This document shows, one piece after another, positions 27,842 to 42,808 of a stretch of DNA of 52,720 nucleotides. Source of the DNA: Spirochaetaceae bacterium (GTDB lineage Bacteria > Spirochaetota > Spirochaetia > DSM-27196 > PWMO01). The stretch is taken from positions 1 through 52,720 of the forward strand of contig REDW01000079.1 of the NCBI GenBank assembly GCA_007693325.1, given 5' to 3'. Position 1 is the stretch's first letter; each line of letters starts with the position of its first letter. The notes under the pieces were generated by a model. That model searched no databases. It worked only from the letters and a program-made list of their open reading frames with translations, and was not told where the DNA came from. Made by a program: the position numbers and the translations under genes.

Positions 27842-28642
27842 CTATTCCACCTCGGAAAGCAGCACTTCGTCGCTTTCGAAGGTCCGATGGCGAATCTCGT
27901 GAAACTTCCGTACCAGCTTGTCAACGGTCAGGCTGCGCTTTTCCTCGCCATCGACATCGAGGATGATCTCACCTTTGTCCATCATCAGCAGCCGATTCCC
28001 GTACTGGATGGCGTGCGGCATGTTGTGGGTCACCATCACAGTGGTAAGCCGGTACTCGTTCACAAAGCGCATCGTCAGGTCGAGCACCATCTGCGCATTC
28101 TTGGGGTCCAGCGCCGCGGTGTGTTCGTCGAGCAGAATCAGCTCCGGCTCCGACAGCACCATCATCAGAAGGGTCAGCGCCTGCCGCTGGCCCCCGGAAA
28201 GCAGCCCGACGTTGTCCTTGAGCCGATCCTCGAGCCCCATTTCCAGATGTGTCAGGCGTTCCTGGAAGAAGCCCCGCATCCTGTTGTTGAGACTGATCCG
28301 CGGCCCTTTGAAGCCCTTGCGATAGGTGATCATCATGTTGTCTTCCAGGCTCATGTTGGATGCCGTACCCAGAAGCGGATCCTGGAAGATGCGTCCGATG
28401 TAACGCGCGCGTTTGTATTCCGGATGGCGCGTGACCTCGATGTCATTTACAAAGACCTTGCCCGCAGTCGGCATGAAGGTCCCCGATACAAGATTGAGCA
28501 GCGTGCTCTTGCCGGCACCGTTACTGCCAATTACGGTGATGAAGTCACCTTCACGCACGTGGAGCGAAACGTTGCGCAGCGCCGTGTTCTCGTTGACAGT
28601 TCCAGGGTTGAACACTTTGGTGATCGATTCCAGGCGGATCAT
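27842..28642 (-). CDS. ABC transporter ATP-binding protein (TrpXYZ type)
   Basis: A 266-residue ATPase energising the adjacent permease. Walker A is GSNGAGKSTLL (about 39-49), the Q-loop follows GRIFQDPLLG, the signature is LSGGQRQALTL (about 150), Walker B is ELILLDEHTAALD and the switch His is in VTHNM. It starts inside the permease stop (ATGA). Together with the next two genes it forms a three-part importer of the class annotated as TrpXYZ or ABC_sub_bind uptake systems, for which tryptophan and other small substrates have been proposed. Confidence 0.88.
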   Translation of the reverse strand: MIRLESITKVFNPGTVNENTALRNVSLHVREGDFITVIGSNGAGKSTLLNLVSGTFMPTAGKVFVNDIEVTRHPEYKRARYIGRIFQDPLLGTASNMSLEDNMMITYRKGFKGPRISLNNRMRGFFQERLTHLEMGLEDRLKDNVGLLSGGQRQALTLLMMVLSEPELILLDEHTAALDPKNAQMVLDLTMRFVNEYRLTTVMVTHNMPHAIQYGNRLLMMDKGEIILDVDGEEKRSLTVDKLVRKFHEIRHRTFESDEVLLSEVE

Positions 28643-29607
28643 AGGGCACCCTTGCCAGTCGCGGCAGCGCGGGCAGCGCCGGCCGGCGGGGCCTCTTCGC
28701 CGCCGGCCCCCGGCAACACAAGCAGCGCCTTGGGCTTGCTGGTTCGCATCTGGGTAATCACCAGGCTAACGATGATCAGCAGGCCGGTGATCAACTTGAG
28801 ATCGTTGGGCGTCAGGTTGACGTAGTAGCCGTAGTAGCGACCGAGATACATGATCCCGCGGTAGAGAATCGACCCCAGCACCGCGCGCGCGGTCAGGATC
28901 CAGATCCGGTTGGATCGGATCAGAAACTCCCCTATCATAACCGATGCCAGTCCGGCAATAATGATCCCCTGCCCGAGGTTGACATCGGCGAATCCCTGGT
29001 ACTGGGCAACAAAGGCGCCCGACAACGCTACCAGGGCGTTGGAGAGCCCAACGCCAATCAGCTTCAACGTCTCGGGATTAGCCCCGGTTGCTATAACCAT
29101 CTGTTCGTTGTTGCCCATGGCGCCCATCGTAAGCCCCAGGTCGGTACGGAAGAACAGATCTACCAGGAACTTGGCAATCAGCGTGACGGCAAGAAAGAAG
29201 ATCAGCACGGCCACGACGCTACTCATCACATCGGTGGCCATTGCACGCACGTGCGTCAGGATGGTTGTCTGCCGCAGCAGCGGAAGGTTGGCCCGGTTCC
29301 CGAGCACACGGATGTTGATTGACCAGAGCATGGTCATAGTGAGAATGCCGGCCAACAGGTTAGGTACCTTGAGTTTGTTGTGAATCAGCGCGGTCACCAT
29401 GCCTGCCACCAGCCCACCAAGGAAGCTGATGGCCAGACCAAACCAGAGACTGGCGCCCTGCGTAATCATCACCGCCATAATAGCGGCTCCCAGCGGAAAG
29501 GACCCGTCAACGGTGAGATCGGGAAAGTTGAGGATCCTGAAGGTGATGAACACCCCCAGGACCATCAGACTGTAGACAAGCCCTTCGACCAGGATTCCTT
29601 CGATCAC
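28639..29607 (-). CDS. ABC transporter permease (TrpXYZ type)
   Basis: A 322-residue inner-membrane protein with about eight hydrophobic segments, in the branched-chain-amino-acid-type permease fold (LFFRTDLGLTMGAMGNNEQMVIATGA near 155 is the conserved cytoplasmic loop). The C-terminus ends in a hydrophilic Ala/Gly/Pro-rich tail of about 25 residues. The start is a GTG whose last two bases form the binding-protein stop (GTGA), so translation is coupled. Confidence 0.85.
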   Translation of the reverse strand: MIEGILVEGLVYSLMVLGVFITFRILNFPDLTVDGSFPLGAAIMAVMITQGASLWFGLAISFLGGLVAGMVTALIHNKLKVPNLLAGILTMTMLWSINIRVLGNRANLPLLRQTTILTHVRAMATDVMSSVVAVLIFFLAVTLIAKFLVDLFFRTDLGLTMGAMGNNEQMVIATGANPETLKLIGVGLSNALVALSGAFVAQYQGFADVNLGQGIIIAGLASVMIGEFLIRSNRIWILTARAVLGSILYRGIMYLGRYYGYYVNLTPNDLKLITGLLIIVSLVITQMRTSKPKALLVLPGAGGEEAPPAGAARAAATGKGAL

Positions 29608-30596
29608 TGCGTGCGCAACACTCCGTTCTCAACGATCTTGCCGGCAGTTTCGAGGATGTCCTCGGGAAAGGTAATACCCAGTGCATCGGCAACATCGAGG
29701 TTGATCAGCAGGTCAATGTCCGTGGGATCAGTCATGAACACAGTCCCGATATCCGACGTTGGTGTCCCCTCCAGAATCTGGGCAATCACCCGGCCGGTAG
29801 CACGCCCCATCTTGTAATAGTCAAAACCCCAGGCGGCGAGTACGTCGAACTCTTCGGCTGAGCTGGGATCAGCGGTAACCACCGGGACTCCGGCGGCGTT
29901 TGCCACTTCCACCAGTGAGCTCAGCGCTGACACAACGGTGTTGTCGGTACTGACGTAGATACCGTCCACCCGGCCTATGATCGACTGGGTTGCCTGACGG
30001 ACTTCGGCCGAGTTGGTGACCGTGGCTTCGACAAACTCGATGCCAAGCTCGTCGGCGGCCTCACGCGCCATGTTGGCAAGCGTTACCGCGTTTGCCTCGC
30101 CGGAGGCGTAGACGTGACCGAGGGTCTGCAGGTCGGTAAGCCGCGCCAGCATTTCGATCTGCGCCTTTACCGGGGTCATATCAGATACACCGGTAACGTT
30201 TGGACCACCGCGCTGATAGTTGTCAACCAGACCCGCGTCCACCGGATCGGTGACCGCCGAGTATACCACAGGGATGTCGCTGATGGCGTTCACCAGCGCC
30301 TGCGATGTTGGGGTGGCGATTCCGACGGCAACCCGGACACGATCACTGCGAAACTTGGTGGCTATTGATGCTGCGGTGGAAATATCACCGGCAGCGTTCT
30401 GCAGGTCATACTCGAGCTCGTAGCCCAGATAGGCCAGTTCGTCCATGATGCCCTGCTCGACCGCGTCCAGTGCCGGATGAGCAACGATCTTCGAGATTCC
30501 GATCACGTCAGGGCGATCCGCCGCCCCCGCACCAAACACGGTTGCAGCAATCAGCATTGCTGCGGTCACCAGAGCCAGCATACGTGTTTTGTTCAT
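29604..30596 (-). CDS. ABC transporter substrate-binding protein (ABC_sub_bind family)
   Basis: A 330-residue periplasmic protein with signal peptide (about 1-26, MNKTRMLALVTAAML then GAGAA). Two lobes of the PF04392-type fold follow, with IGISKIVAHPALDAVEQG at the front and PVVYSAVTDPVDAGLV, PVVTADPSSAEEFDVLAAWGFDYYKMG in the second half. It delivers the substrate to the permease and ATPase downstream. A hypoxanthine-type permease gene precedes it, but a terminator separates the two, so a shared substrate is only a guess. The start at 30596 follows AAGGAGGAA. Confidence 0.85.
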   Translation of the reverse strand: MNKTRMLALVTAAMLIAATVFGAGAADRPDVIGISKIVAHPALDAVEQGIMDELAYLGYELEYDLQNAAGDISTAASIATKFRSDRVRVAVGIATPTSQALVNAISDIPVVYSAVTDPVDAGLVDNYQRGGPNVTGVSDMTPVKAQIEMLARLTDLQTLGHVYASGEANAVTLANMAREAADELGIEFVEATVTNSAEVRQATQSIIGRVDGIYVSTDNTVVSALSSLVEVANAAGVPVVTADPSSAEEFDVLAAWGFDYYKMGRATGRVIAQILEGTPTSDIGTVFMTDPTDIDLLINLDVADALGITFPEDILETAGKIVENGVLRTQ

Positions 30597-30701
30597 TTTG
30601 ATTCCTCCTTGTACCACTGTCGGTATCCCTTACTCTACGCCGAACCGGGGGCAAATGTCTACGTTTCTTATGCAAATGGAGCCGAAAATGGAATAATTAT
30701 G

Positions 30702-30749: not shown

Positions 30750-32036
30750 TCAATTCACGACGAAATGCAGAATAAAGATCAGCGCTACAACGTAGGTCGA
30801 GATCGGGATCTCTTTGTGACGTCCGCTGATAAGCTTGAGCAGAACGTAGGCCAGAACACCAAAGATGATACCTTCGGCAATCGAGTAGGTAAACGGCATC
30901 ATGATGATTGCCAGAAACGCTGGAATTGCCTCGGTGTACTCCTCCAGATCGATGTCCTTGACCGGTCCCATCATGAACAGACCCACCAGCACCAATGCCG
31001 GAGCAGTCGCTGCACCGGGAATCATCAGGAACAACGGCGATACAAACAGCGCCAGCAGAAACAGAACCGCTGTGGTCACCGAGGTCAAACCGGTACGACC
31101 GCCCTCGGCAACACCGGATGCACTCTCGATGTAGGTGGTCACCGTTGAAGTTCCCAGGAGCCCACCAACGGTTGTGCCAACCGCGTCGGCAAACAGCGCC
31201 TCTTTGGCCTTGGGAATGGTGCCGTCGGGCTTGATGATACCGGCCTTGGTGGACACACCGATCAGCGTTCCAGCGGTATCAAACAGGTCGACAAAAAGGA
31301 ACGTGAACAGCACAATCAGCATGTCGGTTGAGAACACCTGCGAGAAGTCAAACTGAGCAAAGGTCGGCGCCAGCGAAGGCGGAGCCCAGCTGCCGCTCGG
31401 CGGCTGAGTGATGCCCATTGGAAAACCGATGAGTGCGGTAATAACGATGCCCAGCAGCAGCGCTCCCTTTATCTTGAACGCCAGCAGCCCGCCGGTGATG
31501 ATCAGACCGATCAGAGCCAGCAGCGCTCCGCCGGAGGTAACGTCGCCGAGCGTCACCATGGTGGCCTCGTACGGAACAACAATACCGGCGTTGTTCAAGC
31601 CAATCAGGGTGATGAAGAGACCGATACCCACCGCAATACCACGCTTGACATTCATCGGAATCGAGTTAACGATCGCCTCGCGAATGTTAAGCATCGTCAG
31701 TACGATAAATATGATGCCTTCCAGAAATACTGCGGTCAACGCGAACTGCCACGAGTATCCCATGCCGATTACAACCGTGTAAGCAAAGAACGCGTTGAGT
31801 CCCATCCCTGGGGCCAGCGCAAACGGCAGGTTTGCCACAAAGGCCATAACCAGCGTAGCGATAGCCGATGCCAACGCCGTTGCCGTGAACACCGCGCCGA
31901 AGTCCATTCCGGCGTCAGAAAGGATCAACGGGTTGACGATCAGGATGTAGGCCATCGTGAGAAACGTCGTCAGTCCAGCCAATACTTCGGTCTTGACCGT
32001 GGTATTGTGCTCCTTCAGCTTGAACAGTTTTTCCAT
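30750..32036 (-). CDS. Purine (hypoxanthine/guanine/adenine) permease, AzgA/PbuG type
   Basis: A 428-residue proton symporter of the NCS2 AzgA-like branch, with about 12-14 membrane segments. Typical features are EVLAGLTTFLTMAYILIVNP at the front, APGMGLNAFFAYTVV near 77, FVDLFDTAGTLIGVSTKAG near 250 and GTSTVTTYIESASGVAEGGRTGLTS near 295. It imports purine bases for salvage or, in this neighbourhood, perhaps for breakdown. Start at 32036 after AAGGAGTG. The leader is only about 25 bases, too short for a purine riboswitch. Confidence 0.88.
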   Translation of the reverse strand: MEKLFKLKEHNTTVKTEVLAGLTTFLTMAYILIVNPLILSDAGMDFGAVFTATALASAIATLVMAFVANLPFALAPGMGLNAFFAYTVVIGMGYSWQFALTAVFLEGIIFIVLTMLNIREAIVNSIPMNVKRGIAVGIGLFITLIGLNNAGIVVPYEATMVTLGDVTSGGALLALIGLIITGGLLAFKIKGALLLGIVITALIGFPMGITQPPSGSWAPPSLAPTFAQFDFSQVFSTDMLIVLFTFLFVDLFDTAGTLIGVSTKAGIIKPDGTIPKAKEALFADAVGTTVGGLLGTSTVTTYIESASGVAEGGRTGLTSVTTAVLFLLALFVSPLFLMIPGAATAPALVLVGLFMMGPVKDIDLEEYTEAIPAFLAIIMMPFTYSIAEGIIFGVLAYVLLKLISGRHKEIPISTYVVALIFILHFVVN

Positions 32037-32067
32037 AGACAACACTCCTTGGATCTGGGGCTACCGA

Positions 32068-32181: not shown

Positions 32182-32592
32182 TCAGAGTGTCTTGTTGATC
32201 CGGTTTGATATCTTGACCTGCAACCAGTGGGCGTTGACAATCGAGCGCACGTGTGCCCCGCGGGCTATCAGTCCGTTGTTGTCGTGTGCCTGCATCGCTA
32301 TGCCAATATGATAGCCATCGAAGCTTTCAATCGAGACGGTCATGGTCACAACGGCACCCACAACCGACGGATGCTCGTGCACAACCTCGGCACTCTTGCC
32401 CACAGAAATGAATCCGTCGGGGAGCTTCGGGTGAACCATGCGTGCCGAGGCTTCTATCATCATCGATACAATACTGGGAGTCGACAGCAATTGCCCCACA
32501 TCGCTGTCCCAGTAGTTGCCGGCGGTGTCGGATTGCTCAACGGTGCGCGTGATGCTGTGGCTGTCGCCAATAAGTATGCCGGGAAACTTCAT
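32182..32592 (-). CDS. FlK-like acyl-CoA thioesterase
   Basis: A 136-residue hotdog-fold protein resembling fluoroacetyl-CoA thioesterase FlK. The family's catalytic Thr, Glu and His can be placed at STPSIVSMMIEASA (about 37-50) and VVHEHPSVVGA (about 72), with the typical end GLIARGAHVRSIVN. It would hydrolyse a small acyl-CoA; a housekeeping or detoxifying role in the neighbouring CoA-transferase pathway is likely. The start at 32592 follows AAGGAGAG; the upstream extension of the frame has no support. It is divergent from the CaiB gene at 32701. Confidence 0.75.
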   Translation of the reverse strand: MKFPGILIGDSHSITRTVEQSDTAGNYWDSDVGQLLSTPSIVSMMIEASARMVHPKLPDGFISVGKSAEVVHEHPSVVGAVVTMTVSIESFDGYHIGIAMQAHDNNGLIARGAHVRSIVNAHWLQVKISNRINKTL

Positions 32593-32612
32593 GAACTCTC
32601 CTTCGCGCTCGG

Positions 32613-32641
32613 ATTGTAATACACTTTTGTGAGTATGAAAA
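32613..32641 (-). promoter_or_regulatory. Promoter of the thioesterase gene
   Basis: TTTTCA (32636-32641) and TACAAT (32613-32618), spacer 17. Its -35 abuts the divergent -35. Confidence 0.45.
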
Positions 32642-32670
32642 TGGACGCCCACCGGGATGCAGCATATAAT
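32642..32670 (+). promoter_or_regulatory. Promoter of the first CaiB gene
   Basis: TGGACG (32642-32647) and TATAAT (32665-32670), spacer 17. The leader of about 24 bases carries AGGAGG (32689-32694). Confidence 0.6.
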
Positions 32671-32700
32671 CGAGCGCATAGATCAGGCAGGAGGACGGCA

Positions 32701-33891
32701 TTGGAAGTACTCAACGGCATTCGGGTTATCGATCTGACACAGGCGCTCGCGGGCCCCTACTGCGCGCAACTGCTCGGAGATTTTGGTGCCGAGGTGATCA
32801 AGGTCGAACGTCCCGCAGGCGGCGATCAGGCACGCGGCTGGGGGCCGCCGTTTGTTGCCGGTGAGAGCTCCTACTTCATGGGCACCAATCGCAACAAGCG
32901 CAGCATCACGCTCGACCTGCAGATTCCCCGGGCGCGTGAGATCATGGACTGCCTGGTGGACCGGGCGGATGTACTGATCCATAATGTTCCCAGACGCGCA
33001 ACGCGCGAAAAGCTCGGAATCGATGCCGCGCGGGTACGGGGACGCAACGCGCGGATCATCTGGGCATCGATCACCGGTTTTGGGCTCACGGGCCCCGAAG
33101 CCGAGAAACCCGGCTACGACGTCATCGCCCAGGCAATGAGCGGCACCATGGCGCTGACCGGTGAGCCCGACCACGGACCAACGCGTTTCCCGACCCCGAT
33201 GGCCGATATAACCACCGGCATCTACACTGCCCTGGCGATTGTAGCTGCGCTGTACGAACGGCAGTCAAGCGGCGTGGGCCAGGAGCTGGACCTGGCACTG
33301 CTGGATTGCCAGACCACCTGGTTGGCAAACGTCGCCTCGGCCTATCTGGCTACCGGCAGCGCACCGGCCAAGCGCGGCAACGCCCATCCAAACATCGCCC
33401 CCTATCAGCCGTTCCACGCAGCCGATGACTGGTTCATTGTAGCAGCGGGAACCGAGGGGCACTGGAAGTTGCTGATCGAGACCCTCGGTATCGATGCAAC
33501 TATCGGCAGCGACAGGCGGTTTTCCAGCAACGCAGAGCGAGTGGCACACCGCGAAGAACTCGATGCGTTGCTGAGTGAACAGTTTGCACGCCACCCGGTG
33601 GATTACTGGATCGGAAAACTCGAAGCCGCCGGCATACCGTGCGGACCAATCAACAGGCCCGAGCAGATCCTCAATCATCCGCATATGGCAGCGCGCAATA
33701 TGATAGTCAGTACGCAGCACCCGAGCGCCGGCCCGGTTCGCTCGCTTGGCAACCCGATGAAGATGAGCCGCACCACGCCGCGTGCTGAACGGCCGGCGCC
33801 GCTCCTGGGAGAGCACACCGTAGCGGTGCTGTCCGAACTCGGCTACGATGCGGACCAAATCGAACAGCTTCGCCGGGAGCGTGCGGTTTGA
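32701..33891 (+). CDS. CaiB/BaiF-family (type III) CoA-transferase
   Basis: A 396-residue enzyme moving CoA between carboxylic acids. The opening LNGIRVIDLTQALAGPYCAQLLGDFGAEVIKVE, then GTNRNKRSITLDL, is the family hallmark. The nucleophilic Asp that forms the acyl-anhydride is in PMADITTGIYTALAI (about 168). The start is the TTG at 32701, which follows AGGAGG at 6 bases and lies after the promoter; the frame is open from 32629 but that stretch contains the promoter. It resembles the second CaiB protein (35245-36435) over its whole length, so the two are paralogues placed on opposite sides of the amidase gene. Substrate unknown. Confidence 0.85.
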   Translation: MEVLNGIRVIDLTQALAGPYCAQLLGDFGAEVIKVERPAGGDQARGWGPPFVAGESSYFMGTNRNKRSITLDLQIPRAREIMDCLVDRADVLIHNVPRRATREKLGIDAARVRGRNARIIWASITGFGLTGPEAEKPGYDVIAQAMSGTMALTGEPDHGPTRFPTPMADITTGIYTALAIVAALYERQSSGVGQELDLALLDCQTTWLANVASAYLATGSAPAKRGNAHPNIAPYQPFHAADDWFIVAAGTEGHWKLLIETLGIDATIGSDRRFSSNAERVAHREELDALLSEQFARHPVDYWIGKLEAAGIPCGPINRPEQILNHPHMAARNMIVSTQHPSAGPVRSLGNPMKMSRTTPRAERPAPLLGEHTVAVLSELGYDADQIEQLRRERAV

Positions 33892-33922
33892 GGGGGGTGG
33901 TCTGAAGCGGGTGCGGCTGCAG

Positions 33923-35248
33923 TCAATCGTCGCTAGACGCGGCCAGTATCGCCTCGATCCGCGCTGCGCGTGCTACCAGGGCTTCGTCGCCCTCGTAGCA
34001 GCCGCACAGCTGCAACCCGAGCGGTAGTCCATCCTCGCTCAGTCCGCACGGTACGGTTAGCGCCGGAACCCCGGCGTAGGTCCACGGCAGGTTCATTATG
34101 GGGCTACCGGTAGCCTCGATACCGCGCGGTGCCGCTGAAGCACTCGCTGGACTGGCCCACAATGAGGCGCCGAGGCGTTCGGATTCCTGCGTGATACGCT
34201 CGCGCAGCCTGCTGCGGTCCTGCCTCGCTTGGCTGACCCGCTGCGAATCTACCTCCCGGCCGCGTTGTACCAGCTCGGCGCTTGTCTCACTGTAGCGCTT
34301 GCGCTGCTTATCGAACCAGGCCGCGTGCACCTGAGCAAACTCGGCGGCAATCATGTCGTTGTGGGCAGCGTTGATCTGGTCAATGTCATCCAGCAGCGAC
34401 GACTGTTCGATACGCGCACCGCCGTTTGCCAGCCGTTCCAATCCACGCTCGAACGCCCGGCGGGCACCCGCATCGGCTTGCGCCAGATAACGCTCACAGG
34501 GAACGGCCACTACCGATTTCTTATGAACCGGCTCTCTGGCCGCAGCCTTGTGGTTCCACGGCCGGCACAGTACCGCCGCCAACCGCGCCACACCGGCAAC
34601 ATCGGACGCAAAGACTCCAACGTGATCAGCGGAAACCGAGAACGGGAAGACACCGTCGGTGGTAATCCTGCCGAAGCTCGGCTTGTAGCCTACGATTCCG
34701 CAGAACGCCGCAGGACGAATGACCGAGCCGATGGTCTGCGTCCCCAGCGCAGCGTGGCACATGCCTGCTGCTACCGCCGCCGCCGAGCCGCTGCTCGATC
34801 CGCCCGGGGTGTGCTCGGGGTTCCACGGATTGCGAGTGGGCCCCGGCGAGAAATAGGCAAACTCGGTGGTAACGGTCTTACCGGCCACCAGTGCTCCAGC
34901 TTCCACCAAGCGAGTGACCGACGAGGCCTGCTGTCCGGCAAACAGCTCAGCGGAGAGCCGTGAGCCGGCGCGGGTTTCAAAACCGTCCACTCGGAACAGG
35001 TCCTTCACCCCGATCAGCAGGCCGTAGAGCGGCGGCCGTTTTGCCCTGTCGGCGTACTCGCTTTCCAGCGCAGCGGCCTGTTTCATCAGACGCTGTTCGC
35101 GCCCGGGCTCATCGATAAACGCCTTCAGCGTTGGTTCAGCTTCACGTATGCGTTGCAGAACGCGTGCAATCTCGTTCTGCAGGGCGCCATCGCCTTCACG
35201 CAGTTGCCGCAGCAGTTCTACTATGTTCACCGGAGCAACCAGGTTCAA
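33923..35248 (-). CDS. Amidase (amidase signature family)
   Basis: A 441-residue hydrolase of the GatA/AtzF-like amidase signature family. The Ser-cisSer-Lys triad is visible: Lys in LIGVKDLF (about 82), Ser in the GGSSSGSAAAVAAG block (about 149-162), and Ser in TIGSVIRPAAFCGIVGYKP (about 175). The usual T-D-T-G-G-S is T-Q-T-I-G-S here. It cuts a carboxamide or ureido bond; an allophanate- or oxamate-like substrate would fit the neighbours. The start is a TTG at 35248 after AGGAGGG, overlapping the CaiB stop by 4 bases. It is the last gene of the fdrA operon and converges on the first CaiB gene. Confidence 0.85.
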   Translation of the reverse strand: MNLVAPVNIVELLRQLREGDGALQNEIARVLQRIREAEPTLKAFIDEPGREQRLMKQAAALESEYADRAKRPPLYGLLIGVKDLFRVDGFETRAGSRLSAELFAGQQASSVTRLVEAGALVAGKTVTTEFAYFSPGPTRNPWNPEHTPGGSSSGSAAAVAAGMCHAALGTQTIGSVIRPAAFCGIVGYKPSFGRITTDGVFPFSVSADHVGVFASDVAGVARLAAVLCRPWNHKAAAREPVHKKSVVAVPCERYLAQADAGARRAFERGLERLANGGARIEQSSLLDDIDQINAAHNDMIAAEFAQVHAAWFDKQRKRYSETSAELVQRGREVDSQRVSQARQDRSRLRERITQESERLGASLWASPASASAAPRGIEATGSPIMNLPWTYAGVPALTVPCGLSEDGLPLGLQLCGCYEGDEALVARAARIEAILAASSDD

Positions 35249-36435
35249 ATCACACCCTCCTCACGCAAGGCCTCGATCTCGGACTCGCTGTAGCCCAACA
35301 GGTCTCCGTAGACTTCTGCGTTATGCTGACCTACGGCGGGCATCGGCGGGCGTGACACCTCATCATCAAATGAAGACATCTTGATCGGATTTCCGGCGAT
35401 CTTGACCGTTCCTACCACCTTGTCACTGACGTCTACAATCATATTGCGCGCCAGCACCTGGGGATGCTTCAGCACCGCGTCAATGCCGTTGATCGTGCTG
35501 TGCGGTAGACCGGCATCGGCCAGGATGTGTTCCCATTCGGCAGTGGTCCGACAGCGGAACTCTGCTTCAAGGATCTGGTTCATTGCATCGATGTTCTGCG
35601 TGCGATCACCGTTAGTGCGGAACCGCTGGTCGTCGATGAGATCGGGACGGCGGATCACGTTGCAGAGCGTTTTCCAGAGCGCATCGTTTCCGATGGCCAC
35701 CACCATGTAATCGTCTTTGGTGGCGTAGGCCTGAAACGGAGCAATCGTCGGATGGCGCGTGCCGAGGCGCTCGGGGTTACGACCATCGACCTGGTAGCGC
35801 GCCAAAGCGTTTTCCAGCAGCGAGACCTGGCAATCGAGCATTGCCACATCGACCTTCTGGCCCTTGCCGGTCTGTGTGCGCTGATAGAGTGCCGCCATAA
35901 TACCGATCGCGGTGTACAGCGAAGCCGAAAGGTCACCGATCGAGCAGCCGACACGCGTCGGTGGTCCGTCGGGCCATCCGGTGATGCTCATGAGCCCACC
36001 GGCGGCCTGTGCCAGAATGTCGTAGGCCGGCCTGGTGGAATCCGGCCCCGTGTGCCCGTATCCCGAGGAGGCCGCATAGATCAGCCGCGGGAACTCGGCC
36101 CGCAGCGTGTCGTAGCCCAGGCCCAGCTTCTCCATGACTCCCGGCCGATAGTTCTCAACCAGGACGTCGTGCGTCGCCATCAGTTTCTTCAGAATACTGC
36201 GCCCTTTCTCGGTCTTGAGATTGAGCGACACGCTCCGTTTACCGCGGTTGATACTGATGAAGTAGAGACTGCGGTCATTCTTGAACGGACCAAAGCTGCG
36301 CGAATCGTCACCCTTGCCCGGGATCTCTACCTTCAGCACCTCTGCGCCGAGGTCCCCAAGAATCATGGTGCAAAACGGACCGGCCAATACGCGACTGAGG
36401 TCCAGCACGCGGACCCCGGCCAGAGGCTTGCTCAT
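35245..36435 (-). CDS. CaiB/BaiF-family CoA-transferase (operon copy)
   Basis: A 396-residue type III CoA-transferase with LAGVRVLDLSRVLAGPFC, INRGKRSVSLNLKT and the presumed catalytic Asp in GCSIGDLSASLYTAIGI (about 169). The family includes formyl-CoA:oxalate, carnitine, succinyl-CoA and bile-acid CoA-transferases; motif reading does not separate these. It lies 15 bases after the cyclase gene and overlaps the amidase gene, fourth in the fdrA operon. A paralogue lies at 32701. Confidence 0.85.
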   Translation of the reverse strand: MSKPLAGVRVLDLSRVLAGPFCTMILGDLGAEVLKVEIPGKGDDSRSFGPFKNDRSLYFISINRGKRSVSLNLKTEKGRSILKKLMATHDVLVENYRPGVMEKLGLGYDTLRAEFPRLIYAASSGYGHTGPDSTRPAYDILAQAAGGLMSITGWPDGPPTRVGCSIGDLSASLYTAIGIMAALYQRTQTGKGQKVDVAMLDCQVSLLENALARYQVDGRNPERLGTRHPTIAPFQAYATKDDYMVVAIGNDALWKTLCNVIRRPDLIDDQRFRTNGDRTQNIDAMNQILEAEFRCRTTAEWEHILADAGLPHSTINGIDAVLKHPQVLARNMIVDVSDKVVGTVKIAGNPIKMSSFDDEVSRPPMPAVGQHNAEVYGDLLGYSESEIEALREEGVI

Positions 36436-36450
36436 GCTTCGTACTCCACG

Positions 36451-37323
36451 CTACTTCTTGCGCGCTTCTTCGGCCAGCCACGGATTGTCTGCAATCGATA
36501 CGTCACCGTGCTTGGTGAGTTTGCACTTGGCCTTCTTCTGCATCAGTTGATCGTAGCGCTGATCCTCAACAAACGCAACAATCCGCGCAATGCTGGCCTC
36601 CCCGTCAACAAAACGCCACGGGAAACAGCCGATCAGCGCACGCTGATTGAGCAGCAGGTCGATATCGCCGCCAACGCATTCAGCGTGAACGATGCTGTGG
36701 TTGAACATCTCGAGATGCATCAGCTGGTACTTGTCATCGGTAAAGACCTCCGAAAGTCCCTTGCCGTATTTCTTTTTGAAGTGGGCATCGCACTCCCCGG
36801 CCTGGCGCGGCATCCAGTCACGAATCTTGGTGTTCATCGGGTGGTCGGCGCTACCGCAGTCAACGCCGATCCAGCGCAGCTTCTTCTGCTTGGCCCACTC
36901 GGCAAACTCACGGTCCGGCCCCGGATGCTTGACCATATAGCGGACCTCGTCGGCGTTCGGCTGGTCCCAGCCGTACCGATGGTACCCGGTGTTGATGATC
37001 AGGATGTCGCCTTCTTTGACTTCAACACGGTCTTCCACCATCCTGGAGGTGTAGATGTCGTAGTCTCCGGCGGCATCCGACAGGTCAACGATGACTCCGT
37101 CGTGCATCAGATAGTCCATCGGCAGACTGGCCATATCGCGTCCCGGGGTATAGAAGTGAATCTCACCATCGAGATGCGTCCCGATATGGTTGGAATGCGT
37201 CACCAACTGACCGTTGGCGCCGTTGGGAGCGAGGCGCTTGAAGTACTTCACCTGCAGCGGCTCATAGGTGGGCCACGGCGGGGTGCCGATACCCAATGGA
37301 ATACTCAAATCGATTGCTTTCAT
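36451..37323 (-). CDS. Cyclase-family metal-dependent hydrolase
   Basis: A 290-residue enzyme of the cyclase family (COG1878: kynurenine formamidase, isatin hydrolase and relatives). The metal site H-x-G-T-H-x-D-x-x-x-H is intact in HSNHIGTHLDGEIHF (about 56-70). A second block, IINTGYHRYGW, and GVDCGSADHPMN and HLEMFNHSIVHAE carry further conserved acids and His. Relatives open cyclic amides or cut formamides with a Mn or Zn ion. It is longer than most kynurenine formamidases (about 210 residues). Start at 37323 after AGGAGA. Third gene of the fdrA operon. Confidence 0.82.
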   Translation of the reverse strand: MKAIDLSIPLGIGTPPWPTYEPLQVKYFKRLAPNGANGQLVTHSNHIGTHLDGEIHFYTPGRDMASLPMDYLMHDGVIVDLSDAAGDYDIYTSRMVEDRVEVKEGDILIINTGYHRYGWDQPNADEVRYMVKHPGPDREFAEWAKQKKLRWIGVDCGSADHPMNTKIRDWMPRQAGECDAHFKKKYGKGLSEVFTDDKYQLMHLEMFNHSIVHAECVGGDIDLLLNQRALIGCFPWRFVDGEASIARIVAFVEDQRYDQLMQKKAKCKLTKHGDVSIADNPWLAEEARKK

Positions 37324-37361
37324 TTCTGTCTCCTGGTGAAATTTCGGTATATCAATGATTC

Positions 37362-38795
37362 TTATGGTTTTGTTCCGTATCGTTCCGCGTAGGCCTCGAA
37401 CGCGTCGTGGAAGCACTTGAGCGGCGGCTTGACCAGACCCGCACCAACCATTCCCACGCCCGGATCCTTGTGCGCAATGCCGGTATTGATTGCCGGCAGA
37501 ACACCGGTCTCGATAATTTTGAACAGGTCGATACCGGTCGGCGTACCGCGAAAGTCGAGCGCCGGAATCTGGTAGGTGTCATTCTCGCGCAGGGTTATGT
37601 CGTACATCCGCCTTGTGAAGGTGAGTGCATCCTGCGGCGTCCCCCCGACAAACTTGACTATCGCCGGCGCGGCCGCCATTGCAAACCCGCCGATACCGCC
37701 GGTCTCGGTGATGACCGAGTCACCGACGTCACGCGCGGCGTCCTGTTCCGAGTAGCCCGGCAGGTAGAGACCGTCCACCCTGGAAGCCGGGCCGGTGAAC
37801 CACTGATCGCCGAGGCCTGATACCCGGATACCGAACTCGGTGCCGTTGCGAGCCATGGCCACGATCATCGAACTGCCGTCGATATCGCGCGCGGCATCAA
37901 CGGCGGCTTTGCACGCCGGCATAGTAAGGTTGAGAAAGAAGTGGTCATTAGTATGCATGAACTTCAGCACTTCACTGAGCTCTTGCTTACTGCGATCGAG
38001 CATCACCAGGTAGGGCGCCATTTCACGAATGAACAACGAGGTGCCGGCACGGTTGCGGTTGTGCCCTTCATCGCCCATCTGCAGCACCTGTGCAATCAGG
38101 TTCTTCATATCGATGGGGCCGTGCATTTCCAGCGCCTGCTTGAGCACCGGTGACAGAACATCCCCCATCCACTTCAGCCGCTTGATCACCTCGTTTGAGT
38201 TTGCTCCGTAGCGCAGAACCTTGCCGAGCCCCTCGTTGAGCGTGCAGTAGGCGGTATTACCGAACGTTTCGTTCTTCATGATCCAGACCGGCATGCTCGA
38301 AGTCATAATGCCCGCCATCGGGCCGACCGCATCGTGATGATGACACGGGGCGTATTCGATATCCCCGGACGCCGCCAGCTCCTCGGCCTCTGTGGGGCCC
38401 TTCGCCAGCCCCTCGTAGATCAGTCCCCCAATTACTGCACCGCGTACCGGACCGGCCATTTTGTCCCAGGTTACCGGCGGACCGGAATGCAGCACCAGCT
38501 TCTTGTGCATGCCGGGCACAACGTCGGCGGCAATCCCGATATCGATCAACGTCGGCTTGCTCTTCATCAGCCGCTCCACAGCCTGGTCGTTGGCCTGATC
38601 GCGCTTGAGCGCAGAGTTGCTTTCAACGCGCTCAAGCAACTGCACCATGTGCCGGTCTCCACCGGCAGGCGGCTTCCAGTCCACCTGTAATGCCTCGGCA
38701 CCTTCATGCTGCAGCGACGCAGTGAACTCTTCCAGCCCCAGATTGATTGCCTTCAGGTCGCCGGAAAACAGTTGGTTGATCTTTGCAACACTCAT
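37362..38795 (-). CDS. DUF1116 protein, YlbE/AllG-like oxamate carbamoyltransferase component
   Basis: A 477-residue protein of the DUF1116 family, recognised from GDLKAINLGLEEFTASL near the start, DIGIAADVVPGMHKKLVLHSGPPVTWDKM near 100 and YAPCHHHDAVGPMAGIMTSSMPVW near 175. In E. coli the family member YlbE (AllG) works with FdrA (AllF) and YlbF (AllH, DUF2877) in the reaction that phosphorolyses oxalurate to oxamate and carbamoyl phosphate. It starts 4 bases after the fdrA stop. The DUF2877 partner is at 41894. Whether the substrate here is oxalurate is inference. Confidence 0.82.
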   Translation of the reverse strand: MSVAKINQLFSGDLKAINLGLEEFTASLQHEGAEALQVDWKPPAGGDRHMVQLLERVESNSALKRDQANDQAVERLMKSKPTLIDIGIAADVVPGMHKKLVLHSGPPVTWDKMAGPVRGAVIGGLIYEGLAKGPTEAEELAASGDIEYAPCHHHDAVGPMAGIMTSSMPVWIMKNETFGNTAYCTLNEGLGKVLRYGANSNEVIKRLKWMGDVLSPVLKQALEMHGPIDMKNLIAQVLQMGDEGHNRNRAGTSLFIREMAPYLVMLDRSKQELSEVLKFMHTNDHFFLNLTMPACKAAVDAARDIDGSSMIVAMARNGTEFGIRVSGLGDQWFTGPASRVDGLYLPGYSEQDAARDVGDSVITETGGIGGFAMAAAPAIVKFVGGTPQDALTFTRRMYDITLRENDTYQIPALDFRGTPTGIDLFKIIETGVLPAINTGIAHKDPGVGMVGAGLVKPPLKCFHDAFEAYAERYGTKP

Positions 38796-38799
38796 TCAG

Positions 38800-40347
38800 T
38801 TACCTTACCTTCTGCATGATCTTGAGCGCCAACCGAGCGGCCTGGACGTTGGACGGCATCACAACGCAGCCGACTTCTTGCAGCGTACGTCTCTGCGCCG
38901 TCAGGCTCTGAGGATCGCCATCGGTGCCGGTCACCGAGGCAACAACCGCCAGATAGCCGCCGTCATCCGCGGCCGCTCTTCTGGCAGCGGTGATGGCATC
39001 AACCATGGCGCCGGCCGGATCACGGTGGGCACCGTAGCCGAGCACAAAGTCGAGCAGCAGCAACGCCATATCGCCACCGCGGAGTTCCTTCTCCAGCTGT
39101 TCGTTGCGGATCGAGACGTCGATCATAGGATGAGGCCGACCAACGGTAAACGTGTCATCACCGAGATCGATGATGGTGTGTTCGCGCGAAACCGTTGGGT
39201 CCGCGAGACGATATCCCTCGTCGGGGTGAACGTTGGAGTAAACCCCGCCCAGAGCTTCCTGCATAACAAACAGCGCCTCCTCTGCCAATGTACCGCCGCA
39301 GAACAGGCCGCGCAGATACTTCTGTTTCTTGCCGAATGACGCGCTTTGGTCTGCGACAATTCCGGCAATTTCATCATCGGACAACGCGAACTCGGTGGGG
39401 TTGTGCTTGCGGCCGCCGGCCAGCTCAACCGCTATGCTGGCACAATCTTCGAGGCTGGGAGCGAAGCGGATTTTGTCCTCGTCCTGGCGACGCCGAGCGC
39501 CAATGAAGTGCACCACTGCCGGTTTAGCGCTCTTCCGCAGCGCCTCGATGGCACTGTCCACCACCGTTTCTGCCGGCGGCTTGGAAATCAGGCTGATCAC
39601 CGTGGTCTCGCCATCCGCAGCCAGCGCCTCGATTCCCATGAGCATGCTGATACCGCCAACATCCTGCGTGACGTCGCGGCCACCGGTGCCGATAGCCTGC
39701 GTGATGCCGCTACCGGCCTTGTCGATGCTGCAGGTGAGTTCCTGCAGCCCTGAACCGGAGGCCGCCACAATACCGATCGGACCGCGTCTGATTACGTTGG
39801 CGAACGCCAGCGGCTTACCGTTGATGATCGCGGTACCACAGTCCGGCCCCATAAACAGCAGCCCCTTATCGCGCGCCATCTGCTTCAGGCGAATCTCGTC
39901 CTGCAGCGGCACATTGTCCGAGAATACCATGACGTGCAGACCACGCTCGAGCGCTTTGCGCGCTTCACGTGCAACAAACGCGCCGGGAATCGACAAGAGT
40001 ACCAGATTGGCTTGCGGTAACACTTCGACTGCTGCGGCCAGACTTGTGGGACGAAACGCCTGCTCGCTGGTGCGGCTCTTCTTCTTCAACAGTGAGTAGG
40101 CAGCCGTCTCTGCCTGGTTGAGGGCATCTTCGGTTTCACCCTCCAACGCGACGATGAGGTCATTGGCCGTTGCGGACTCCACGTCAGCGTTGCTCATGTT
40201 CATGCCCTTGAGCAGATCACGATTCATGTCAGTACCCATCGCCACAACGGCCTCGGAAATGCTGTCGGTCTTCTTCACATCCTGATTGATCAACATCAGA
40301 AAGACCGAATCGTAATAGGCGTCTTTGCGGACAATAATTCTCTTCAC
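38800..40347 (-). CDS. fdrA: FdrA/AllF family protein (succinyl-CoA-synthetase-like)
   Basis: A 515-residue FdrA-family protein. It has a Rossmann-type CoA-binding domain (about 95-210, with LVLLSIPGAFVAREARKALERGLHVMVFSDNVP and GPDCGTAIINGKPLAFAN) and a ligase-CoA-like domain (about 220-500). The region equivalent to the phosphohistidine motif GHAGA of succinyl-CoA synthetase alpha reads FIGARRRQDEDKIRF and has no His, so ordinary acyl-CoA synthetase chemistry is doubtful. This agrees with its E. coli role as an oxamate carbamoyltransferase subunit. Start is the GTG at 40347 after AGGAGAG; the upstream part of the frame contains the promoter. First gene of a five-gene operon. Confidence 0.85.
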   Translation of the reverse strand: MKRIIVRKDAYYDSVFLMLINQDVKKTDSISEAVVAMGTDMNRDLLKGMNMSNADVESATANDLIVALEGETEDALNQAETAAYSLLKKKSRTSEQAFRPTSLAAAVEVLPQANLVLLSIPGAFVAREARKALERGLHVMVFSDNVPLQDEIRLKQMARDKGLLFMGPDCGTAIINGKPLAFANVIRRGPIGIVAASGSGLQELTCSIDKAGSGITQAIGTGGRDVTQDVGGISMLMGIEALAADGETTVISLISKPPAETVVDSAIEALRKSAKPAVVHFIGARRRQDEDKIRFAPSLEDCASIAVELAGGRKHNPTEFALSDDEIAGIVADQSASFGKKQKYLRGLFCGGTLAEEALFVMQEALGGVYSNVHPDEGYRLADPTVSREHTIIDLGDDTFTVGRPHPMIDVSIRNEQLEKELRGGDMALLLLDFVLGYGAHRDPAGAMVDAITAARRAAADDGGYLAVVASVTGTDGDPQSLTAQRRTLQEVGCVVMPSNVQAARLALKIMQKVR

Positions 40348-40384
40348 GAGCTTCTCTCCTGGAATCGCCACGTTGTGGTGTAGA

Positions 40385-40412
40385 AATATACCATGTGGAC
40401 CGGCGTTGTCAA
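40385..40412 (-). promoter_or_regulatory. Promoter of the fdrA operon
   Basis: Consensus TTGACA (40407-40412) and an extended -10 TGgTATATT (hexamer 40385-40390), spacer 16. Predicted start near 40378, leader of about 31 bases with AGGAGAG. Confidence 0.75.
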
Positions 40413-40450
40413 AGAAGCGCGGCGAGCGTGCGCCCCGGCGCACAACGTAA

Positions 40451-40482
40451 GGAGCCTTCAGCGCGTGAACGATGAAGGCTCC
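40451..40482 (-). terminator. Stem-loop after the uracil/xanthine permease gene
   Basis: A perfect 9-base inverted repeat, GGAGCCTTC (40451-40459) and GAAGGCTCC (40474-40482), between the permease stop and the fdrA promoter. The downstream T-tract is weak (TTACGTT). Confidence 0.55.
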
Positions 40483-40535
40483 AGAAGGTCAGGTTTGCGT
40501 CAAAAACCAGACCGCGCGAACGAGCTGCGGCGTGT

Positions 40536-41807
40536 TCAGCTGCCGCTCTTGATGCTCTGCGGATCGAGAACGGCGTTGAGTACGATACCGACGATTGCCG
40601 CAAGTCCCAGTCCGCCAAACGAGAAGATGCCGATCGCGATGTCAACTTCAGCCGCTGCGGTTCCCAGTCCGAGCACCAGCATCGCGGCAACGATCATCAG
40701 CTTCTTGGGATCGTCCATGTCGAGCTTGGCATCAACCATGTTCTTGACACCAATCGAGCTGATCATGCCGAACAGCAGGATCGAGATTCCACCGATAACC
40801 GGAGCCGGTACGGTAGCGATCAGCGCGGTGAACTTGGGGATCAGCGACAGCACAATGGCGAAGACAGCCGCAATTCGCATGACCCACGGATTGTAGACTT
40901 CGGTCAGAGCGATAGCCCCGGTGTTCTCACTGTAGGTAGTGTTGGCCGGACCACCGATCAGGGCCGAGAAAGACGTTGCCAGACCGTCACCCAGCAGCGT
41001 GCGGTTGACACCCGGGTCTTTGATGAAGTCACGCTTGGTCACATTTCCGATGGCCAGAACGTCACCAAAGTGCTCGACCATGGTTACAATGGCAATCGGT
41101 ACGGTGAAGCTTATCGCGGTAGCCGAAAATTGCGGCAGGGTAAAGCGAGGAATGCCAAACCACGCGGCTTCCGCCACGCCGCCGAAGTCTACGATACCGA
41201 TGATCACCGACAACAGGTAGCCCGCGACAATTGCCAACAGCACCGGAAGCAGCGACATGAACTTCAGGTTCCAGCGCGGCAGAACAATCTTGACGAAGAT
41301 TGCCGCGGCAAACGTAAACAGTGCCACAAACCAGCTTCCCAGCACGCCGATCTGTTCTGCAACATTGCCGACGTAACCGTCGGTAGCATTCATTATCGCT
41401 ACCGGTGCCAGAATAATGCCGATCAGGATAATCACCGGGCCGGTAATATGCGGCGGCAGAATGCGGTGCAGCACGTCAGCGGAGACAAACGTAAAGATGA
41501 TCGCCACCACAACGTAGACCAGGCCGGCAATCAGTATACCACCCAGTGCAAACGGCAATCCCTCATTGGCGCCAATGACAAACAGTGCCGGCAGGAACGC
41601 AAACGAGCTCCCAAGGAATACCGGAACCTTCCACTTGGTCACCACGTGAAAGATCCAGGTTCCTACCCCAGCAGCAAACAGGGTAACACCCACATCAAGA
41701 CCGGTCAGCAGCGGCACAAGCACCGTTGCACCGAACATGACGAAGGTGTGCTGCAGACCCAGAACAACCGTTTTACCGGTTACGGGTTCGTTCAACGAAT
41801 CAGACAT
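40536..41807 (-). CDS. Uracil/xanthine permease (NCS2 family)
   Basis: A 423-residue nucleobase symporter of the UraA/RutG/PbuX branch, with about 14 membrane segments. The front has LGLQHTFVMFGATVLVPLLTGLD, the middle VEHFGDVLAIG, and the NCS2 signature is GGPANTTYSENTGAIALT (about 285). This branch carries uracil, xanthine or uric acid; the motif does not settle which. It lies between the DUF2877 gene and the fdrA operon on the same strand, so it is the probable uptake step of that pathway. The start at 41807 follows GGGAGA; two in-frame ATGs lie upstream. It has its own promoter. Confidence 0.87.
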   Translation of the reverse strand: MSDSLNEPVTGKTVVLGLQHTFVMFGATVLVPLLTGLDVGVTLFAAGVGTWIFHVVTKWKVPVFLGSSFAFLPALFVIGANEGLPFALGGILIAGLVYVVVAIIFTFVSADVLHRILPPHITGPVIILIGIILAPVAIMNATDGYVGNVAEQIGVLGSWFVALFTFAAAIFVKIVLPRWNLKFMSLLPVLLAIVAGYLLSVIIGIVDFGGVAEAAWFGIPRFTLPQFSATAISFTVPIAIVTMVEHFGDVLAIGNVTKRDFIKDPGVNRTLLGDGLATSFSALIGGPANTTYSENTGAIALTEVYNPWVMRIAAVFAIVLSLIPKFTALIATVPAPVIGGISILLFGMISSIGVKNMVDAKLDMDDPKKLMIVAAMLVLGLGTAAAEVDIAIGIFSFGGLGLAAIVGIVLNAVLDPQSIKSGS

Positions 41808-41840
41808 GTGTAACATCTCCCTCTGCACAGATGTGTTCTG

Positions 41841-41857
41841 CCGGAGGCACGCTCCGG
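41841..41857 (-). promoter_or_regulatory. Stem-loop in the permease leader
   Basis: CCGGAG (41841-41846) pairs with CTCCGG (41852-41857), loop of 5, within the predicted 55-base leader and about 30 bases ahead of the start codon. Confidence 0.35.
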
Positions 41858-41869
41858 ATAGCTGGCGAC

Positions 41870-41897
41870 ATTGTATATGATAACGCCATTAAATCAA
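41870..41897 (-). promoter_or_regulatory. Promoter of the uracil/xanthine permease gene
   Basis: TTGATT (41892-41897) and TACAAT (41870-41875), spacer 16. The -35 overlaps the stop codon of the DUF2877 gene. Confidence 0.5.
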
Positions 41898-42808
41898 GCT
41901 TTTTTGATAAAGTTCATGAAAAACCAGAGCATCCCGACCGCGGCGTCGGTTGCCGATGTCTGACCGTGCTCGAGCAACCCGGACTCAACCCGCTGCGGTG
42001 CCGCTGGCGGTGTTGCAGCGCCGGGGCACGCTTCTACTGTGAACAGCCGCTCGGTCAGCTGCAGCAGATAGGCGGGAAACTGTCGCCGGACAGCAGCAGC
42101 TACCAGTGTTTGACCGGCAGACGTGGTAGCGTGCAGGCGCTGCTCTATCGCCGTGCGGTTCAAACTGCTGCAGCAGGTACCGCTGGCATGACAGAGCTCC
42201 TGCGCCAGGAGTGCCCCGGCGAGAAAATCGTCCCCGGAAGGGGTCAGCCCGACCCCGAGCCCTACCAGGGCGGAAACATCCCGCTCGGCGGCTTTGGCCG
42301 TGGGTATAGCCGCCTGCGCCGTAATCGGTGGGTCAACTGCGGCTGCAAGCAGCCGCTGCGCGAAGGCACTCACCGGGTTGTGAGCCGGCTCGTGAATCAG
42401 CCCCAGCAGCCCGCCGGCGCTTCCATGCTCCACAACGAGCGTGCGCAGCGCAGCGATGCGCTGAGCGGTTATGCAGTACTCGGCGCCGTGAGGCAGGCAT
42501 CCGTCCCAGCGTTGGGCGTCGGCGCAGTCTACCAACCATTCCCGTCCGATTCTCAGCATGGACCGGTTGAGCGTACACTCGGTACCGCGGACCAGCGGCG
42601 CCGGCAAGCGGTCGAGCAACAGCGCCGCGGGGGCCATGTCTGCGGCCCGGTCCACCAGCGAGACCAGCCCCCGTGCGTCAGATATCTCCAGGTTCACAGC
42701 GCGGCGATACACCGAGTGTACCCGCATCGGTCCCTCGGCTGGCACCAGGGCTCCCACCTTCAGTGCCGTCAATTCATACCGCTCCTGCCGGCCAGGGGTG
42801 TGCTGCAT
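41894..42808 (-). CDS. DUF2877 protein, YlbF/AllH-like oxamate carbamoyltransferase component
   Basis: A 304-residue protein of the DUF2877 family, marked by GLGVGLTPSGDDFLAGALLA (about 205-224), its single strongest motif. In E. coli the member YlbF (AllH) is the third partner of FdrA and YlbE. All three partners are therefore present here, but this one is split from the fdrA operon by the permease gene and has its own promoter. The frame is open to 42880, where it would run through the divergent rarD promoter; the ATG at 42808 follows a TACACT box by 10 bases and is preferred. No Shine-Dalgarno sequence. Confidence 0.8.
   Translation of the reverse strand: MQHTPGRQERYELTALKVGALVPAEGPMRVHSVYRRAVNLEISDARGLVSLVDRAADMAPAALLLDRLPAPLVRGTECTLNRSMLRIGREWLVDCADAQRWDGCLPHGAEYCITAQRIAALRTLVVEHGSAGGLLGLIHEPAHNPVSAFAQRLLAAAVDPPITAQAAIPTAKAAERDVSALVGLGVGLTPSGDDFLAGALLAQELCHASGTCCSSLNRTAIEQRLHATTSAGQTLVAAAVRRQFPAYLLQLTERLFTVEACPGAATPPAAPQRVESGLLEHGQTSATDAAVGMLWFFMNFIKKA

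Follow-up and report, generated by a model that had tools for sequence, protein, structure and literature searches.

A spirochaete FdrA-AllG-AllH island as the probable lower part of an energy-conserving oxidative pyrimidine pathway

Which compound is processed by a carbamoyltransferase of the FdrA-AllG-AllH type when its genes stand apart from those of allantoin catabolism? The question is raised by positions 1 to 52,720 of contig REDW01000079.1 (the window, 52,720 nucleotides) of a Spirochaetaceae bacterium (GCA_007693325.1). This is a Spirochaetota metagenome-assembled genome (MAG) of 3.47 Mb and 97.5% completeness, the closest relatives of which are spirochaete MAGs whose isolate names place several of them apparently in soda-lake sediment. 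In E. coli, AllFGH acts on oxalurate during anaerobic allantoin catabolism and converts it to oxamate and carbamoyl phosphate (PMC11326118). As the first-pass annotation had claimed, the FdrA, DUF1116 (AllG) and DUF2877 (AllH) genes lie together in the window (38800-42808, with AllG continuing to 37362), each over the relevant cut-off, and the genes annotated in the window include neither an allantoin gene nor a carbamate kinase. We conclude that the island is probably the lower part of an energy-conserving oxidative pathway for pyrimidine catabolism.

Gene identities were assigned from Pfam and NCBIfam profile cut-offs and from PDB matches. The features are as follows.

41894-42808, minus: AllH, the DUF2877 component of the carbamoyltransferase (52.8 bits on PF11392, cut-off 25; ATG start at 42808)
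40536-41828, minus: NCS2 permease of the UraA/uracil type (PF00860, 314 bits; motif TTYSENTG)
40385-40412, minus (read 40412 to 40385): promoter-like site 5' of FdrA, TTGACA-16-TATATT (consensus match only, 11/12)
38800 to about 40347, minus: FdrA (AllF), SucD-like subunit (PF00549/PF02629; NCBIfam FdrA 519 bits against a cut-off of 433; PDB 3dmy 302 bits)
37362-38795, minus: AllG (DUF1116) subunit (PF06545, 344 bits; PDB 3clq 477 bits)
36451-37323, minus: PF04199 cyclase, proposed to be a metal-dependent hydrolase that opens the ring of barbiturate or 5-methylbarbiturate (112.6 bits)
35245-36435, minus: CaiB-type class III CoA-transferase 1, CaiB1 (PF02515, 443 bits)
33923-35248, minus: amidase-signature hydrolase, proposed malonamate amidase (PF01425, 249 bits)
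about 32701-33891, plus: CaiB-type CoA-transferase 2, CaiB2, convergent with the operon (start codon TTG, preceded by AGGAGG; clusters with CaiB1)
32182 to about 32592, minus: FlK-like hot-dog thioesterase (PF22636, 87 bits; PDB 3qoo and FlK matches)
30750-32045, minus: second NCS2-family protein, peripheral (PF00860, 166 bits; also in locus L002)

On the minus strand the genes follow one another, 5' to 3', as AllH, NCS2 permease, FdrA, AllG, cyclase, CaiB1 and amidase. The spacings from FdrA through AllG, cyclase and CaiB1 to the amidase are 4, 38, 15 and -4 bp, which suggests a single operon and transcript. The FdrA open reading frame extends to 40443, and the GTG start at 40347 is preferred. 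A search with Rfam found no RNA element at the island. Among the partners listed earlier, the cyclase, the amidase, two CaiB proteins, the FlK-like enzyme and one UraA-like permease were all recovered; the second permease was not retained, since it lies outside 32182-42808, matches no NCBIfam model and lacks the uracil-type motif, and it is regarded as peripheral.

The classical oxidative pathway leads from uracil through barbiturate and ureidomalonate to malonate by means of uracil dehydrogenase, barbiturase and ureidomalonase (PMC3758960, PMC4051656); ureidomalonate is the product of barbiturase, and ureidomalonase releases malonate and urea from it (PMC3758960). In the route proposed here, the UraA-type permease would import uracil, thymine or a close oxidised relative, and a molybdenum hydroxylase, encoded outside the window here and within the cluster in relatives, would oxidise uracil to barbiturate or thymine to 5-methylbarbiturate. 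The ring of barbiturate would then be opened by the PF04199 cyclase, a protein unrelated to barbiturase that would take over its step, to give ureidomalonate (3-oxo-3-ureidopropanoate). Ureidomalonate is the next homologue of oxalurate, one carbon longer. FdrA-AllG-AllH would phosphorolyse it to malonamate and carbamoyl phosphate, the analogue of the conversion of oxalurate to oxamate, and carbamate kinase could gain ATP from the carbamoyl phosphate. The amidase would hydrolyse malonamate to malonate and ammonia, and the CaiB CoA-transferases would turn malonate into malonyl-CoA (methylmalonyl-CoA in the thymine case), from which a biotin-dependent Na+-pumping decarboxylase of the relatives would give acetyl-CoA or propionyl-CoA. 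Uracil and thymine are not distinguishable as substrate from these data. Each individual reaction and the direction of flux are proposed from protein families, gene context and phylogeny; the gene content, the conserved linkage, the replacement of the cyclase by barbiturase, the phylogeny and the co-occurrence are results of computation. The outline drawn before (import, ring opening, phosphorolysis, de-amidation and formation of a CoA ester) thus survives, and its choice of parabanate and oxalurate as the compounds probably does not.

When GTDB genomes were scanned with the AllG of the window as seed, 80 loci were returned, which together with those of relatives made 103, some of them redundant; their genes were called with a composition-scored gene caller. 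The cyclase was present in 47 of the 103, in Spirochaetota, Bacillota, Chlorobiota/Bacteroidota/Ignavibacteriota, Kiritimatiellota, Chloroflexota, Verrucomicrobiota and Pseudomonadota. The neighbourhood survey called for by the first-pass annotation therefore shows an association that is not confined to the source genome, and the repetition of the order FdrA-AllG-cyclase in dozens of loci from several phyla argues that it is not due to chance. The commonest extra partner was a molybdenum hydroxylase, whose three subunits were found in 45, 39 and 37 of the clustered loci; NCS2 permeases, PucR regulators, carbamate kinase, CaiB and amidase also recurred. Locus L018 has CoxM-CoxS-CoxL-uracil permease-FdrA-AllG-cyclase in a row. 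A single 29-kb contig of the congeneric genome G001 carries permease-FdrA-AllG-cyclase-CaiB1-amidase, CaiB2 and FlK, and continues with MmdA-OAD gamma-biotin carrier-OAD beta-CoxL-CoxM-CoxS-carbamate kinase; AllH is the sole component of the set that was not found on it. CaiB2 is kept in loci L001, L003, L142 and L143.

Four lines of evidence point to pyrimidines, namely the permeases, the molybdenum hydroxylase, the type of CoA-ester decarboxylase and the replacement of the cyclase by barbiturase. Among solved structures, the window permease comes closest to uracil permeases (243 bits). On the uracil-permease equivalog model, which has a cut-off of 477 bits, the linked permease of the spirochaete locus L007 scores 574 and that of L018, from a Selenomonadales MAG, 648; the linked Nocardioides permease tested scores best on RutG, below the RutG cut-off. 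The motif TTYxENxG occurs in 24 of 27 linked NCS2 permeases from outside the window's genus.

The source genome itself encodes five molybdenum hydroxylase large subunits. The CoxL on its contig C94 is sister (support 100/100) to the FdrA-linked CoxL proteins of L131, L142 and L143, and the one on contig C62 is sister to the FdrA-linked CoxL of L007. A CoxL at least 63% identical to that of C94 was found in 18 of 29 AllG-bearing relatives against 0 of 32 others (Fisher p 2.6e-8, uncorrected for kinship).

As for the decarboxylase, an MmdA-type carboxyltransferase is present in several spirochaetes and in Anaerotruncus. In L133 and G001 it is accompanied by a biotin carrier and OAD-beta, which makes a complete Na+-pumping decarboxylase of the methylmalonyl/malonyl-CoA type. 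By contrast, a search of thiamine diphosphate (ThDP) enzymes found nothing resembling oxalyl-CoA decarboxylase in any surveyed locus. This enzyme had been noted before as absent from the window, and the rest of the source genome likewise gave no match over the cut-off. The linked decarboxylase and the lack of an oxalyl-CoA-decarboxylase-like gene in the loci suggest that the acid would be malonate or methylmalonate and that the oxalate named at first is probably wrong.

The fourth line comes from Actinobacteria, where loci with a molybdenum hydroxylase, an NCS2 permease, an amidase and AllFGH have no cyclase. All 17 such genomes tested contain PF09663 (the AtzD/barbiturase family), and none of the 7 cyclase genomes tested does, the source genome among them; this exclusion alone is not independent evidence, since the two groups are also taxonomically distinct. 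A Nocardioides representative matched PDB 5hwe, Barbiturase, over its full length with 670 bits, against about 317 bits for the best cyanuric acid hydrolase. Barbiturase has a published signature (Asn195, His321, Lys325, Val345 and Ser or Ala346) that differs from that of cyanuric acid hydrolase (PMC3758960), and the aligned actinobacterial PF09663 proteins carry it; a second, divergent copy in genome G065 (L167) is without it. Barbiturase lies in or near the AllFGH cluster in all four actinobacterial genomes inspected. In G070 and G074 one strand reads permease-CoxM-CoxS-CoxL-CoxG-amidase-HyuA-HyuB-NmrA-carbamate kinase-barbiturase, with FdrA divergent; the block from permease to barbiturase recurs in G062, and in G075 the last two genes, carbamate kinase and barbiturase, are found about 12 kb past the amidase. 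In the acidimicrobial locus L027, barbiturase stands between CoxL and FdrA, directly before FdrA. An exchange of ring openers is also seen between L024 and L025, which have sister AllG lineages (support 93 and 96 in the SH-like approximate likelihood ratio test, SH-aLRT) and related molybdenum hydroxylases (100/99): in L024 a PF09663 enzyme follows AllG after 12 bp, and in L025 a cyclase precedes FdrA by 9 bp. The signature of the L024 enzyme is like that of AtzD and not like that of barbiturase, so that this pair supports the exchange as such and not barbiturate specifically.

The name cyanuric acid amidohydrolase, which NCBIfam would give to the linked PF09663 proteins, was considered and, on the published signature and the PDB barbiturase match, rejected for the actinobacterial ones but not for that of L024. 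The model concerned, NF052395, scores proteins with the barbiturase signature above its cut-off (L154, 1486-2592; L027, 6907-8010) and would therefore misname them. HyuA and HyuB, of the hydantoinase/oxoprolinase type, recur in barbiturase-type clusters (L171, 11236-16089; L027, 11353-15260), and those of Nocardioides also include an NmrA-like gene.

The carbamoyltransferase set of the window resembles that of E. coli, and its AllG is phylogenetically apart. Alignment with 3dmy shows that the nucleotide/CoA-fold residues and the GRPHPM motif are common to the FdrA proteins of the window and E. coli, and six carbamate-kinase-linked sequences agree with the pyrimidine-linked ones throughout at 75 positions of AllG and 59 of FdrA. 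Identity between the AllG proteins of the window and E. coli is 46%. In the AllG tree the window protein groups with cyclase-linked spirochaetes (support 99), outside the clade that joins E. coli AllG to the Lachnospiraceae allantoin-cluster fusions (SH-aLRT 100). Position 283 (window numbering) is Asn in 20 of 20 sampled pyrimidine-linked AllG proteins and Thr in the E. coli/allantoin clade; position 319 is Thr in nearly all pyrimidine-linked proteins and Asn, Tyr, Val or Lys in the allantoin clade.

Some further observations concern the same subunits. Near its N-terminus (residues 13-57), the window AllG matches the C-terminal end of FdrA from E. coli (510-554 in the NCBIfam model; 430-475 in PDB 3dmy), so that this segment is part of FdrA in E. 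coli and of AllG in the window. FdrA and AllG are fused into proteins of about 1000 aa in the Lachnospiraceae/Clostridium loci L074 (8423-11428, plus), L071 and L077, which is evidence that the two subunits work together; L074 also has the AllB, AllE, AllD and AllC family types (amidohydrolase, cupin, Ldh_2 and M20) and a carbamate kinase. A carbamate-kinase-linked clade (L029, L052, L056) was at one point taken for the E. coli type, an assignment that was rejected when the addition of E. coli AllG showed it to be a third clade. This clade (L029, L040, L052, L053, L056, L073) is mostly carbamate-kinase-linked and differs at 12 otherwise conserved positions, and Nocardioides sp. SLBN-35 has both a third-clade set (L056) and a barbiturase-type set (L038).

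The cyclase, for its part, carries the metal motif HxGTHxDxxxH, which is invariant in 36 homologues. Its structural model has a mean predicted local distance difference test (pLDDT) score of 84, the N-terminal part with the metal motif being poorly modelled, and the top Foldseek matches of the model are the isatin hydrolases 4m8d and 4j0n. A long cyclase of about 550-575 aa accompanies AllG in Chloroflexi and others (L042, 12756-14453; L058, 10566-12236; L124, 7131-8855; also L020, L033, L044 and L072). In L042 and L058 it lies beside a single-domain cyclase; in L124, which also has a BMP-type ABC transporter, it contains two PF04199 stretches.

Against this background, three other explanations were weighed. 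The scheme proposed at first appears very unlikely. In it oxalurate arises when the cyclase acts on parabanate (or a different C2 ureide), AllFGH is a classical oxamic transcarbamylase, and the amidase and CaiB lead to oxalate and oxalyl-CoA. It can appeal to oxalurate, the only demonstrated AllFGH substrate, in one enterobacterium (PMC11326118), and to the title of a 1965 report, according to which parabanate induces oxamate transcarbamylase in a Streptococcus. The best NCBIfam model of CaiB1 is moreover CoA:oxalate CoA-transferase, yet with 379 bits it stays below the cut-off of 522; its closest solved relatives are dicarboxylate CoA-transferases (SUGCT, YfdE). This scheme is opposed by the uracil-type permeases, the molybdenum hydroxylase and the barbiturase replacement, by the clustered decarboxylase of the malonyl/methylmalonyl-CoA type, by the lack of an oxalyl-CoA-decarboxylase-like gene in the surveyed loci and of a match over the cut-off in the genome, and by the place of the window AllG outside the allantoin-cluster clade.

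A second explanation keeps the pyrimidine pathway and makes the amidase the missing ureidomalonase, which would hydrolyse ureidomalonate to malonate and urea and leave AllFGH to act on another ureide. The classical pathway does end in this enzyme (PMC3758960), and an amidase-signature enzyme adjoins CaiB in the window and the molybdenum hydroxylase in Nocardioides; the window amidase scores below every NCBIfam equivalog cut-off listed. The whole AllFGH set, often with carbamate kinase, is however kept in the same clusters across phyla, and a hydrolytic route fits poorly because it would leave these enzymes without a substrate, which makes this explanation quite improbable. We know of no sequence for ureidomalonase.

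A third explanation, very improbable, is that a cyclic ureide from purines or another source is processed with the help of a xanthine-dehydrogenase-like enzyme. In its favour, the linked molybdenum hydroxylase large subunits come closest, without reaching the cut-offs, to the models for XdhA and 4-hydroxybenzoyl-CoA reductase, many loci have regulators of the PucR family, and the window has a second NCS2-family protein, not of the uracil type, close by; but the linked permeases are of the uracil/RutG type, the swapped-in ring opener has the barbiturase signature, and urate and its products need different ring-opening enzymes.

Several points also weigh against the pyrimidine pathway preferred here. 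To our knowledge, no enzyme activity has been reported for any member of the cyclase-linked subset, and the linked molybdenum hydroxylases are close to xanthine dehydrogenase models as well. The window permease scores 339 bits on the NCBIfam uracil-permease model, below the cut-off of 477, and near its conserved glutamates it has Asp and Ser where UraA has His and Gly, so that its ligand may differ. The HyuAB proteins of the actinobacterial clusters are not explained by the pyrimidine scheme. The survey, being seeded with the window AllG, favours loci similar to the window, and many contigs are short-ended. In the source genome, both the molybdenum hydroxylase and the carbamate kinase are encoded outside the island. 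The search of the rest of the genome that had been suggested for the kinase found one, on contig C103 (366 bits, over the cut-off), where relatives have it in the cluster; it is only 39-54% identical to the cluster-linked kinases sampled. MmdA was not found in the source genome. Contig C94 stops 85 bp past CoxL, and it is on this side that the decarboxylase lies in G001 and G003, so that an assembly gap hiding MmdA is possible but unproved. PF05292, malonyl-CoA decarboxylase, had no match in the source genome, but control genomes were equally silent, so that this negative carries no weight. If MmdA is lacking, malonyl-CoA could feed fatty-acid synthesis.

Two sets of neighbouring genes may be added. 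Next to the peripheral NCS2 gene of the window lies an ABC_sub_bind/BPD_transp_2/ABC transporter operon (27842-30617, minus), and the binding-protein gene of this operon also adjoins the second NCS2 gene in L002. In L006, L007, L014 and L015 the cluster includes a thiolase and a GNAT-like protein (together with an OB-fold-like protein in L006 and L007), and no CaiB or amidase was seen there.

Taken together, these features make it likely that phosphorolytic oxidative pyrimidine catabolism is widespread, with AllFGH-family enzymes acting as ureidomalonate (malonamate) carbamoyltransferases, the PF04199 cyclase as an independently evolved barbiturase, and anaerobes gaining ATP, and some of them a Na+ gradient, from uracil or thymine. 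FdrA/DUF1116/DUF2877 sets occur in many phyla, and if this holds, most of the sets surveyed belong to pyrimidine breakdown. It would also suggest candidate genes where assignments are poor (uracil/thymine dehydrogenase, a second barbiturase and a phosphorolytic alternative to ureidomalonase) and would predict that gut bacteria in culture, such as Anaerotruncus, can draw ATP from uracil anaerobically. In the literature on barbiturase, ureidomalonase, uracil dehydrogenase, FdrA and DUF1116, of which few subscription papers were covered, no paper linking AllFGH to pyrimidines was found. Both parent systems are known; joining them appears undescribed, and an earlier description may exist.

Among known systems, the oxalate CoA pathway (frc/oxc) is set apart by its oxalyl-CoA decarboxylase, for which the source genome and the surveyed loci gave the negative results described above. 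The island shares with the isatin hydrolase/kynurenine formamidase family (PF04199) the fold and the HxGTHxDxxxH motif of its cyclase; however, identity is about 20%, and the window cyclase belongs to a separate orthologous group tied to AllG, in which no characterised member was found. The Na+-translocating methylmalonyl-CoA decarboxylase is matched by the complete MmdA/biotin carrier/OAD-beta set beside the cluster in L133 and G001, and differs in that its MmdA was not recovered from the window's own genome. With E. coli oxamic transcarbamylase (OXTCase, AllFGH), whose reverse reaction has a measured oxamate Km of 36.9 mM (PMC11326118), the window has in common all three subunits, adjacent to one another, and the same proposed phosphorolysis of an N-carbamoyl amic acid. 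It differs in having no allantoin or ureidoglycolate genes among those annotated, in a carbamate kinase on another contig, in an AllG outside the E. coli clade and in partners that point to a C3 acid. The closest parallel in intermediates is the classical oxidative pyrimidine pathway, a true barbiturase being present in the actinobacterial version of the cluster. The window type would depart from it by opening the ring with the unrelated PF04199 cyclase, by a phosphorolysis that would save carbamoyl phosphate where the classical hydrolysis yields urea, and by a CoA-ester route in place of free malonate.

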